Shown here: in pieces, positions 57,111 to 62,591 of the stretch | Layout of the letters: each line of letters starts with the position of its first letter | Position numbering within the stretch: position 1 is the first letter of the stretch | From: Xestospongia bergquistia | Lineage: Eukaryota > Porifera > Demospongiae > Haplosclerida > Petrosiidae | Reading direction: 5' to 3' | Length of the DNA: 64,000 bases | NCBI GenBank assembly: GCA_963965975.1 | Contig: OZ014411.1 | Coordinates: 2,775,001-2,839,000 of the forward strand | Notes under the pieces: generated by a model | Databases searched by the model: none | Told to the model about the DNA's origin: nothing | What the model saw: the letters and a program-made list of their open reading frames with translations, nothing else | Position numbers and translations under genes: made by a program

Positions 57111-58557
57111 ACCACAGCAACACTACAATAGTGTCCTCAATAGAAGAATTAACAAATCAATTAATTCAAATAACAAATCAACAAACAATATGAAATAACC
57201 AAAATCAATTATACATTAACTTTTGATAAACTATTTAAAAAATCTTGAGGATGCCTTGCTGATTTTAAACAATAAACAGTCTCCAAAAAAAGACAAATAC
57301 TTTTAGTTTGTTGAGGATATACAATATTAAAGACATAGTATGTAACTAAACAAGAATGGATGGCTGTCACAAGGTTCGGGATGTTAACTACAACCATTGT
57401 TTCGTTCAGGTTAATTAAATCCTCACCAAACATAGCAACAAATGGTTGTACTAAGTTAATGGAGTCTAATTCCTCATCAATATCTAAATTGCTACAATAA
57501 TTAATTAAAGATATAATAATCACAAAACTATATTTGACCTACCAAAAAGGGTATTAAGAACATGCTTTTATCTTTTCCTCTTTGCATGGCCAAGTACACA
57601 CATTGCAATACTCAAACTGTATGCTACCACTTGTTCTAAGTAGGATCAGCCAATTTAATTACATACATGTACTTAAATTCACTAACCATTACTAAATTGT
57701 CAATTTCTTTAAAAAGATGGAATAATTTTTTCACCTCCTTTCGAGACTCGACTTCAGCATATAATATGATTTTCTGAGAAAACGTCAGAAGATTTTAATC
57801 AAAATTGTCAGATGTAATGTTTGCTACTAGAGCAAACTCCTGAATTATAACTAACAAAGTAAACATCAAATCAATGTTTTTATTCATAACTTGCATACTA
57901 TTTGTGGTTGCATAAAACAAGGAAACTCCTCCAAAATTTCAGTAACATGTGGTTGATCATTTTCAATCCATTTTCTACGAATGGCTACATACATGTAAAA
58001 TATAAAGATGTTTTTATGTATTATTATTATACCTGATGTCTCTGACATTAATGACTTCATTCCTACCACAGTCCAATTTTTTGATGTATACAAAGTTTTG
58101 ATTGTTTTCACGTGACGCTTGTAAACCTTTCTAGCTGAATCAGTAATAATAAAAAAGGATATCTGCAATTCATGGATGTCTTCTTTACATAGTTTCTTAG
58201 GAGGGCCATTATCCTCAAGTATTCCCGTAGTGTGTGTTCTATCAGGTCTATGGAGGTTTTTGAACTTATTTTGTAAGTCTTTCTTCCATGAATCCTTATT
58301 AAAGTAGCAAAATAATTTGTATACTATATTTTTATGAAATCAACTTACATAACCACTACCAACTTAGTCTCGTAAACTAGTATGTTGTATAATCAGCCTT
58401 TCTGCAACTCGTTCTAACTTTTTAGCAGATGGATATGAAGTTAAAATACTATTATTCAGAGTAACAGTTGTAGGCTAAAAGAAAATGTAAAATAAATGTA
58501 TATATGTTTATATTTAAAGAGCTAACTCGAGAGAAGTTCATAGGAATTGTAATGGTT

Positions 58558-61500
58558 TGTCACGAAAAATTTGGTCCGGGTGCAAAATTTGGACCTAGGA
58601 CCAAATTTGGCAACAAAAAGTCTGCAAAATTAATTCCGCCTTGCAATATTTGGACCCAGGCGTCTCAGACTGTATAACTTGGTAAAGAGAAGTGGAATTT
58701 GACACATACAAATTGATTTATCACTTCTTATGTTATATGTACTTAAATGGAGAGCTTTAGCCACCTGGTGAAGTTTTCAAAGTGTCAAAAAAGCGATGTC
58801 ACAGCAGAGAGAAGATGGGAACCTGACAGAGGAAGCAATAAACTACATAGAAAATGGAACTTATGGCTCAGATTGTTCCGCTAACAGGAAGAGAAGCATT
58901 AGGAAAAAGGCTGGCAAACTAGCAATGAAAGAAGGAGAAGTGTACTATGAGAAGAAACCAGGACAAGTTTGTATTGTTTTCTCAGTTTCTTTTTTATTGT
59001 TTTAAAATAATTTATGATAATATTTCTGTTTTCAGTGGGTAAGGTATGTACGATCAGAGACTGAAAAGTTACGAATTGTGCGTTGTTGTCATGCTGACCC
59101 AACATCTGGACATCTTGGTGAAAAAAAGACCTATAATAGAATTATTGAGAGATTTACATGGAAAGGAGTTATGAAAGATGTGAAGCAAGTTGTAAGTGAT
59201 GTGTTTTTCTTAATTATAAGTTGTACTGTGACTTATTGTAGGTATCTGCATGTGATGAGTGTCAAAGAACAAGAGACAAGTTGACAACTACAAGACCAGA
59301 GCTACACCCTATACCAGTTCATTCCCCATGGTACCACATCGGAATTGATTTTATTGGACCATTGTCGCCTGTGTCTCAATCAGGAAATCGATATATTTTA
59401 ACAATTAGTGATTATTTCACAAAATGGGTCACAGCAGCTGCTTTACCAACAAAAGAAGCTGTAGGAGTGGCTTATGAGTTGTTGAAGGTAGACAGATCAA
59501 TATTTTAAACAGTGGTAATGATCCATTCCTTTACTAGGTTTTTATGACAATGGGTCTCCCAAGAATTATAACATCAGATCAAGGGAGAGAGTTTAGAAAT
59601 GTTTTAAATGGAGAATTAATGAGAAAACTCAACATCAAACATCACTTAACCACTCCATATCACCCACAGGTCAGAATTCACATTTAAGTTAACTATAATT
59701 AACTAAGATTCTGTGTTTTTTTGTTCTTAGGTTAACGGTTTAGATGAATGATTTAACCAAACTCTACAGAGAATGCTTATTAAGTTTTGCCATAACAACA
59801 AAAATACCTGGGATGAATATCTAAATAGCTGTATTTTTGCCTATAACACTTCCAGGTATTTGAGAATCATCAGCAAACTGTTTTGATATCGACTGCTTTC
59901 TTTCTATCCAGGCATGAATCTTCACTGTATTTACCGTTTGAAGTAATGTTTGGTCGTAAACCTGTTTTGCCTATAGATATAAACGAAAAACAGACCAAAG
60001 CAGACATACCAGATTTAGACAAGCAGTGTAATATGGAAGAAGTTGTAAGTAAGCTTACAGTGGAACGATTATGTGTCTTTAAGAAAGTCAAGGAAAATAT
60101 TTGTAAAGCCCAGAGTAAGCAAAAAAGGCTTTATGACCAAAAACATGCCATTCCCATGGCATTTGAGGTATGCATTTTGTGTATGCAAACAGTGGACTAT
60201 CTTTACTATTATTAGGTTGGTGCAAATGTACTTATGAAAGACTTCAGAAGAAAAAAGAGGAAGGGAGGGAAGCTAGATTATAAGTGGAAAGGACCTTATG
60301 AAATAACAGATTGTCTTGGGAAAGGTTTCTATAGGCTAAAACTTTCAAGTAATAATGATTGCCATGTTTGAACTTATTGACTTTTTTGTATTAGATCAGG
60401 ACAATGTCATTGTTAAGAGAGTGAATGGAGCTCATCTAAGGCTGTATAAAATGCCAGTTGAAGGTTCATCATCGAGTCTTTCCAATTCAATTCCATCAAA
60501 TCCATCACACTCGTCTTTAACTTGCTCACTTCAATTAACTCCAATAAACTCAAACTCATCACCATATTCACCTCAAACACCTCCAATAAACTTGTCTTTG
60601 TATCCACCTTACTCACCACAATTATCCCCAAATTATTCATCTTCTCCACCTTACTTACCACAACACACATCAAATTTGTCATCATTCTCTGTTTCCACTA
60701 TCCCCATCCCCAACACCTTTGCTGATTTAGAATTGGTTTGTAGTACACCTAACAAGTGTAGAGGTAATAATACGTTGCCAATTAATCGGCTTACTCCAAT
60801 TAAAGAAGCACACATAGAAGATGAAAAGATGTCGTCTTTTCAGAAAAAGAAAGACAAGAGGATTCCACTAATTCTTGTCAACAAAGGGAAAGAGAATGAA
60901 ATAGGTACTTCACAGCAGACTAATAAACAAGATGGTAAAGGAAGACATGATAAAAGAAGCCTATCATTAGCTGTAATGAAGGATGCTAAAAGGAGGAAAC
61001 GGCAGCAATGCACATGGACGAAGAAAGCTATTAATTCTGAAGGTATGTACACTTTACATGCTCTACTTCACTATTAGCTCTTTATCAATAGAATGTGTGG
61101 ACCTAACAAACAAGAAAGATGTCCCCACAATATATTGGATACAAGAATTAACATTGTTTCCATCAGACAAAAATTCATTGATCAATGGTAGGTGGCTGAG
61201 TGATGCACTCATCACTGCTGGACAGAAACTCCTGAAAGATGCCTATCCACACATTGGTGGACTTCAACCCACTATATTGGGGATGACATTGGCATTCGAA
61301 GTGCAGAGGAAACAATTTGTACAAGTACTTCACATCAATGAAAATCACTGGATCACTGCTAGTAATATTGGCTGTCCTGTTGCAACTGTTGATATATTTG
61401 ACTCTATGCGATGTACTAGACTATCATTTAGAGCTAAGGCACAGATTGCAGCAATGCTGTTCACAGACCAACCTGAAATAACTGTGCGTTTTCAGCCAGT

Positions 61501-62198
61501 TCAACTACAACATGGTACAAGTGATTGTGGGGTTTTTTCATTGGCTTTTGCCACATCTCTTTGCGGTGGACAAACCCCAACACAAATAACCTACATTCAA
61601 CATCAATTGAGGGACCACCTTTGTCACTGTCTTGAAAATAAGACAATTACCCCTTTCCCTTGTCAGCAGCGAAAAAAGAAAGCAAAACCATATGTTGCTG
61701 ATATGAAATTCAGAGTATACTGCAAGTGTCGTCAACCAGAAGAGGGTAGAATGATTGAGTGCGAAGACTGCAAAGAATGGTATCATGAAGATTGTGTTGA
61801 AGTCCCAAGTGTCATTTGGCAGACCAACAGTCACATATCATGGATATGTGACTCTTGTATAAAAACTCTTAATTAATTGTAACATTATCTATATAATATA
61901 ACCTATAATTACATAACTTGTACTGACTTTATTTAGATTAAATGCTAAATCTTATTATAATCAGATCAAATTGGGCTTGGGACCAAGTCTTGCTGCCAAA
62001 AGTAGACCTAGGTCCAAATTTTGTTGCAAAAAGTGGACCTATCTCTAGGAACAAATTTTGCAGTATAGGTCCAAATTAGGCAGCAAAATTTGGTCCTAGG
62101 TCCAAATTTAGCTTGCATAAATTGGACCTAGGTCCAAATTTTGCATGCAAAAATTGGACCTAGGTCCAATTTTAACTAGGAACAAATTTTCCATGACA
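58558..62198 (+). mobile_element. Ginger1 DNA transposon, 3641 bases, target duplication GGTT
   Basis: The ends are inverted: TGTCACGAAAAATTTGGTCC on the left and, as complement of the right end, TGTCATGGAAAATTTGTTCC. GGTT stands directly outside both ends (58,554-58,557 and 62,199-62,202), a four-base target duplication as known for Ginger1. Subterminal palindromes TTTGGACCTAGGTCCAAA and variants are repeated, about twice on the left and five or six times on the right (61,970-62,175). The element carries one multi-exon transposase gene on the plus strand. Ginger1 elements with a C-terminal Ulp1 or OTU protease are established in the literature; this one adds a PHD finger. It lies inside a coding exon of the SAM-domain gene. 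Confidence 0.9.
58796..61876 (+). CDS. Ginger1 transposase: integrase-like core, Ulp1-type protease, PHD finger
   Basis: Nine exons with short GT-AG introns: 58,796-58,965, 59,036-59,191, 59,242-59,487, 59,538-59,669, 59,731-59,855, 59,912-60,167, 60,216-60,348, 60,395-61,042 and 61,092-61,876. Domains in order: HHCC zinc finger (CHADPTSGHLG, CDECQRTR), DDE core (IDFIGP, ITSDQGREF, VNGLDE), GPY/F motif (YKWKGPYEI), a Pro/Ser-rich linker (60.45-60.7 kb), a lysine-rich basic stretch, a Ulp1-like cysteine protease (His in NENHWITA, Asp in VDIFDSM, Gln in FQPVQLQ, Cys in GTSDCGVF), and a C4HC3 PHD finger (YCKCRQPEEGRMIECEDCKE onward). The protease triad is complete. The integrase part has at least one in-frame stop, so the copy is probably not active. 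The protease and PHD part is open in one exon of 262 codons. Confidence 0.85.
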
Positions 62199-62591
62199 GG
62201 TTTCCTCCAATTTAGTTGACGTTGGAGTTACCTGGAAATTCTCAGAAGAGCTTTCAACCTGGAATATTCAAAAGATTATAAATCAATGTTGTACATTATT
62301 AAATATTAAAAATAAACATACTGGAAGAATTTAATTTGCATGACTTTGGAGTTGAAGGAGATGAGATACATTCTACACATGTTTGAACAATTTTCTTTAT
62401 TTTCATATGGCTACCAAGTACAGGACATAATTCTCGAAGATATTCATCATTAAGTTATATATAAATGCAATTCCACCAATTCTATTCTGTTTAAAAGTTT
62501 CAATAACATCTTCGTCTAACGATGGCAACTCTTCCCTAAAAAAAACACAAATATCATCAGATGTCATAGTGCTAAAGTCGTGAAGACTCAT

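Follow-up and report, generated by a model that had tools for sequence, protein, structure and literature searches.

A Ginger1-type DNA transposon with a Ulp1-PHD tail and an altered target preference in a sponge genome

The closest described counterpart of the transposon reported here is Ginger1-9_HM of Hydra, which is listed with the entry "Ulp1, PHD", a length of 3,758 bp, 120-bp terminal inverted repeats (TIRs) and 2 introns (Bao, Kapitonov and Jurka 2010, PMC2836005, Table 1). Like our element, it joins a Gypsy-type integrase to a C-terminal Ulp1 protease and PHD finger, so the three-part architecture, which the first-pass annotation of this locus pointed out, was already on record in 2010. 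The other Ginger1 families share with our element the integrase, the GPY/F motif, a C-terminal cysteine protease and the TIRs, but as listed in Table 1 of the same paper they carry either an OTU protease replacing Ulp1 or Ulp1 without PHD, and have 0-4 introns. The target site duplications given for 112 Ginger1 elements of Hydra are CCGG in 75% and CCGT/ACGG in 24% of the cases, and the statement in the annotation that Ginger1 elements with Ulp1 or OTU tails and CCGG/CCGT-type duplications had been described agrees with this source; a role for Ulp1/OTU, and for SUMO/ubiquitin, in transposition was also proposed there (Bao et al. 2010, PMC2836005). Mutator-type transposons are likewise DDE transposons that encode a Ulp1 protease, but they belong to a different transposase superfamily; figure 1e of PMC2836005 aligns Ginger1 with Mutator transposases over the Ulp1 and PHD domains. 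Finally, the integrases of Gypsy LTR retrotransposons have the H2C2, rve and GPY/F regions in common with our element.

The window, that is, the whole stretch of 64,000 nucleotides of Xestospongia bergquistia DNA that was analysed, contains a 3,641-bp DNA transposon with the ends TGTCAC...ATGACA, the features of which are collected in the table below. The TGTCA ends and the GGTT duplication with which the element was originally delimited both proved exact. Motifs of the form TGGWCC/GGWCCA run inward from the right TIR to approximately position 61980, and the end regions (the first 250 and the last 300 bases) hold 14 of the 18 TGGWCC-type motif positions of the element; the total of 18 was reached in none of 2000 base shuffles. 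The clustering of these motifs at the ends is seen in two of the three relatives examined and is absent in the third (C3:5482505).

Table. Features of the element in the window (positions are those of the window)
Feature	Positions	Strand	Basis
Left target site duplication, GGTT	58554..58557	.	Sequence
Whole element, TGTCA...TGACA, 3,641 bp	58558..62198	+	Sequence; recurrence of the ends elsewhere
Left TIR, ~61 bp, imperfect; with TGGWCC-type subterminal motifs	58558..58618	+	Local alignment of both ends
Exon 1: N-terminal part, YPYY-like motif	58796..58966	+	Gene model; comparison with relatives
Exon 2: HH half of the Integrase_H2C2 zinc domain	59036..59191	+	Gene model; Pfam
Exon 3: CC half of H2C2, then the beginning of the integrase core; first catalytic Asp 59347-59349 (by inspection)	59242..59487	+	Gene model; Pfam
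Exon 4: integrase core; second catalytic Asp 59577-59579 (by inspection)	59538..59669	+	Gene model; Pfam
Exon 5: catalytic Glu 59746-59748 (by inspection), then in-frame TGA 59749-59751	59731..59855	+	Gene model
Exon 6: C-terminal integrase region; alone, no Pfam match over cut-off	59912..60167	+	Gene model; Pfam
Exon 7: GPY/F motif 60291-60299; SH3_Tf2-1 match below cut-off	60216..60348	+	Gene model; Pfam
Exon 8: basic, Ser/Pro-rich linker; no domain over cut-off	60395..61042	+	Gene model; Pfam
Exon 9: open; Ulp1-type protease and PHD finger	61092..61876	+	Gene model; Pfam
Peptidase_C48 match; His 61346-61348, Asp 61400-61402, Gln 61508-61510, Cys 61526-61528	61328..61591	+	Pfam; alignment of copies
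PHD finger (C4HC3)	61721..61858	+	Pfam; PDB sequence search; alignment of copies
Right TIR, ~60 bp	62139..62198	-	Local alignment of both ends
Right target site duplication, GGTT	62199..62202	.	Sequence

The nine exons originally proposed for the gene are separated by eight GT-AG introns, each 46-69 bp long, and join without a shift of frame; the spliced gene comprises 883 codons, including one internal TGA. The integrase core, with the translation read by inspection, is of the DD35E type, and the TGA in exon 5 follows directly 3' of the inferred catalytic Glu, so that a truncated product would contain no GPY region, protease or PHD finger. The description of the integrase part as broken thus holds with respect to this in-frame stop, but the damage consists of one nonsense codon only. 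When the read-through protein of 883 amino acids, with X at the stop, was compared with Pfam, the matches to Integrase_H2C2 (4.2e-16), rve (7.9e-10), zf-H2C2 (4e-6) and PHD (2e-6) all exceeded the respective cut-offs and that to Peptidase_C48 did so barely (1.9e-4; 21.8 bits, with a cut-off of 20.7), so that the profile searches for the protease, the finger and the integrase core each gave a match over cut-off; rve_3 and SH3_Tf2-1 fell below theirs. The GPY motif, the complete His/Asp/Gln/Cys set and the C4HC3 finger, all noticed at first reading, are present, the residues of the latter two with a spacing that we take to be the usual one. The YPYY-like motif of the window copy has Y-G instead of Y-P, plus YY; the six relatives for which this region was printed keep Y-P, with FF, FL or YY further on. 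In searches of NCBIfam, exon 4 matched IS481 below the cut-off and the tail gave no match; tblastn of the tail against a phage collection gave no match, nor did three neighbouring frames against Pfam.

Two other placements of this gene were considered and rejected. No reverse transcriptase is found among the Pfam matches of the 883-residue read-through protein to E 0.01, and the terminal repeats are inverted rather than direct, with no LTRs, unlike in a Gypsy LTR retrotransposon. The Ginger2/Tdd group, in which the integrase lacks GPY/F, a motif suggested to have been lost there (PMC2836005, section 9), does not fit an element in which GPY is present.

The ends of the window element recur across the genome that contains the window (146.5 Mb in 21 contigs). 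With the 643-bp query from the 5' side, element base 1 or 2 was the start of at least 32 matches (32 of the 40 that were scored, the best of 104 candidates), and with the 639-bp query from the 3' side at least 25 matches extend to the last base (best 40 of 108 candidates scored). Within the subfamily of the window copy, all nine exons are fully matched only in the window copy itself (45 merged stretches compared, some of them partial), and in one set of pairs of ends from this subfamily the two ends lie 992-2,254 bp apart, indicating internally deleted copies; the copy at C1:13959004 is 3,230 bp long, with a frame break in exon 1 and much of exon 8 missing. At C1:13960179 and C7:3597842 the sequence that matches exon 5 lacks the stop. 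Close copies differ at dS 0.006-0.03, and the value of 0.006 between the window copy and the nearest tail copy suggests recent movement. Two deletion derivatives of 1,563 bp, at C11:1300001 and C5:8051426, have equal search scores, differing flanks and the duplications TAGC and GTAC, respectively, and probably represent a non-autonomous form that moved recently. Doubled right ends occur in C13:2628413-2630666 (L013, L014) and in C7:1424632 (L078), with the 4-bp duplication fitting the outer end, and at C7:3595236-3599016 two copies of the window subfamily lie in opposite orientation with their right ends three bases apart.

The comparison of target sites covered 34 pairs of ends, taken from three subfamilies (that of the window copy and two relatives); single-ended copies were left out, C1:10100973 was omitted because its left flank resembles that of C7:593843, and where the right end is doubled (C13:2630666, C7:1427087) the comparison was made with the outer copy of it, the inner giving a mismatch. 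An exact 4-bp duplication is found in 25 of the 34 pairs (15 from the window subfamily, and 7 and 3 from the two others). Among the nine others, four match at 3 of 4 bases (C4:2307653, C15:1316828, C15:3280275 and C2:11536487), the pairs in L008, L028, L031 and L038 show no match, and the pair at C7:3595236 abuts another copy (C7:3599016, outside the comparison). The first position of the duplication is G in 20 of the 25 exact cases and the fourth is C in 20 of 25, and GNNC accounts for 15 of the 25 compared with 2.3% of the 4-mers of the window (binomial p ~1e-18). Where the flanks are long enough to tell, in 24 sites, the target is never preceded by C and never followed by G. None of the 25 is CCGG, CCGT or ACGG, the three targets that together make up ~99% of the Hydra Ginger1 set (111/112 in the Fisher test, both figures computed from the published percentages), and this GNNC-type preference is the main difference between the copies examined here and the described family. 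GGTT had been singled out as an unusual target for the family; it is indeed not of the CCGG/CCGT type, but it is no lone oddity, being one of the five duplications of 25 without the final C within a shared G...C preference. No report of other Ginger1 target sequences was found in a literature search that covered few subscription journals and excluded Repbase; passages of PMC10045372 give only the 4-bp length for Ginger1 targets, and a look through PMC12863088 for relevant terms had no result.

So how should this element be classified? As in the Ginger1 group, it has a TGTNR 5' end with TIRs in the range of ~40-270 bp (TGTCA...TGACA, with an imperfect TIR of ~60 bp), 4-bp duplications (the 25 exact ones among 34 pairs), the H2C2, DDE core and GPY/F regions, and a C-terminal protease of the OTU or Ulp1 kind, with a PHD finger as in one listed family. 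The first-pass identification as a Ginger1-type element with Ulp1 and PHD is accordingly supported both by domains over cut-off and by the published features of the group. Nevertheless, the GNNC target instead of CCGG/CCGT, together with the eight introns where the Ginger1 families of Table 1 have 0-4 and Ginger1-9_HM has 2 (PMC2836005), could point to a separate lineage of DNA transposons derived from a Gypsy integrase that gained Ulp1 and PHD independently. We consider this quite improbable, given the shared TGTNR, 4-bp duplication, H2C2, DDE and GPY features, the partly YPYY-like N-terminus in the relatives, and the presence of Ulp1 plus PHD, in an element of similar length, in Ginger1-9_HM, to which ours is likened by its published description. 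As the assignment is made by architecture and not by a tree, and the CCGG-type target is absent, we class the window element as a Ginger1-type element with altered target preference, a variant rather than a full member.

The tail, used as a query, retrieved further subfamilies at roughly 40-50% identity, and most of these were also found with exon 3, at roughly 60-65% identity; the identity of exon 3 to long open frames of the genome that are probably Gypsy is roughly 33-43%. The residues were counted in 20 distinct tail copies, leaving out repeat views, the second C13 copy and L076, which is under the length limit. The His/Asp/Gln/Cys set is complete in 16 of the 20; the defects of the remaining four are Cys replaced by Tyr, a stop at Cys, His replaced by Tyr, and a frame break. 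The full set of eight PHD ligands is kept in 14, and the other six comprise three matches too short to take in the whole finger and three with a single ligand substitution. A Pfam scan of three relatives gave Peptidase_C48 over cut-off in all three and PHD over cut-off in one and below it in two, so that the Ulp1-PHD tail is common to the subfamilies examined and not confined to the window copy. In lineages ~40-50% identical, most copies have kept the residues of the protease and the ligands of the PHD finger, which suggests that the tail belongs to the transposition machinery. In several subfamilies, short hydrophobic-acidic stretches (VDLT, IVINVD, VIDAD) precede the Ulp1 domain closely (window 61092-61110); a SUMO-interacting motif was considered here by eye, but the strict patterns are not satisfied.

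Several matches to the tail cover Ulp1 only and end near residue 193, and Ulp1-only Ginger1 elements may exist elsewhere in the genome; two of these matches that were examined adjoin DDE_1 frames. With a view to SENP genes of the host, the Peptidase_C48 profile was run against the genome and gave 6 matches. At L097 (C7:5973900-5977300) and L098 (C6:2486900-2490300), two frames, one for a DDE_1 (pogo-type) transposase and one for a Ulp1-type protease, are arranged tail-to-tail; at L098, the matches to DDE_1 (4.5e-16) and Peptidase_C48 (21.2 bits) exceed their cut-offs and that to HIRAN does not, at L097 both DDE_1 and Peptidase_C48 are below, and the two loci are ~98% identical across ~1.9 kb. 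A Ulp1 protease seems to occur, on a frame of its own, in a second transposon class of this genome.

Could the tail have been domesticated, or maintained by selection in its own right, as the integrase fell into decay? In the window copy the stop lies in exon 5 and exon 9 is open, and the copy at C10:4619450 retains all of exon 9 and otherwise matches only residues 1-28 of exon 1; in that copy, however, the catalytic Cys is lost, stops occur in the tails of other copies, and with exon 9 making up 785 of 2,652 coding bases, ~70% of random single stops would miss it. Comparison of the integrase and the tail by NG86 counts, within three subfamilies represented by hand-chosen copies (10, 6 and 5 merged stretches), gave no consistent sign of such a role. 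Pairs with fewer than 40 shared codons were dropped, stops were skipped and pieces of one copy in different frames were pooled. The pooled pN/pS is 0.57 for the integrase and 0.67 for the tail in the window subfamily (28 pairs each), 0.92 and 0.78 in the second (15 pairs each), and 0.49 (1 pair) and 0.66 (10 pairs) in the third, so that the tail is the more constrained part in one subfamily but not in the other two. For the Ulp1 part alone the three values are 0.63, 0.89 and 0.77, and for the PHD part alone, with few changes, 1.05, 0.40 and 0.54. Because the pairs are non-independent and many copies are plainly dead, these figures show that there is no consistent extra constraint on the tail and are not to be read as rates. 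With broken tails elsewhere as well, the suggestion that the open tail had a role of its own is not supported, and we regard such a role as highly improbable.

As to what the tail might do in transposition, the likeness of its domains suggests removal of SUMO by the Ulp1 part and chromatin targeting by the PHD finger. In a PDB sequence search, the nearest solved PHD fingers are those of DIDO1, Pps, PHF1, SPP1, EBS, PHF2 and TAF3; lower in the list of 49 solved PHD matches stands PHF21A, which reads unmodified H3. In sequence, the tail PHD resembles H3K4me3 readers, although PHF1 and PHF21A are also among the matches. A Met and a Trp of the window copy are spaced by nine residues, as are M882 and W891 in the TAF3 numbering. 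This putative cage Trp is present in 18 of 18 covering copies, and the same 18 have Met or Trp at the other position, three residues before the third PHD ligand; a Tyr or Phe stands just before the first ligand, except in one copy with a stop there. The third cage position, W868 of TAF3, has no matched counterpart in the tail PHD. TAF3 contacts H3K4me3 through D877, M882, W868 and W891 (PMC12238850), and H3K4me3-bound DIDO is mentioned in PMC10124903.

For the protease part, both the Pfam family and the best solved match, weak at E 0.014 in the PDB sequence search, are Ulp1/SUMO-protease-like. The match to Ulp1 is nonetheless distant, and in other Ginger1 families an OTU protease occupies the same place, with the two never found together (Bao et al., PMC2836005), so the domain could instead cut ubiquitin, NEDD8 or another modifier, or a modification of the transposase itself, which we hold to be possible if somewhat unlikely.

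With SUMO or a related modifier as the preferred substrate, the scenario that we consider highly probable is that the window holds a recently mobile, now broken Ginger1-type cut-and-paste transposon that would have moved through steps of end binding, GNNC integration, SUMO stripping and chromatin tethering. The transposase would bind the element ends, perhaps via the subterminal TGGWCC-type repeats; the DD35E core would join the TG...CA ends, with a 4-bp stagger, to weakly palindromic targets of the form G-N-N-C. At the donor or target site, the Ulp1 domain would free proteins of SUMO or a related modifier, and the complex would be tethered to H3K4-methylated chromatin by the PHD finger. The window copy, with its stop after the catalytic Glu, cannot yield a full-length protein and, like its internally deleted siblings, would rely on protein from other copies. 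A bolder version, in which a reader of H3K4-methyl promoters and a SUMO-type protease deliver a Gypsy-like integrase to active, SUMO-controlled chromatin and unlock it, the core having shifted its target from CCGG to GNNC in this host, appears to us doubtful.

If the tail is indeed part of the transposition machinery, the old proposal of SUMO or ubiquitin involvement in transposition would become testable with single domains. Furthermore, should the shift in target hold in a wider sample, comparison of the CCGG elements of Hydra with the GNNC elements described here may allow mapping of the integrase residues that set target choice.
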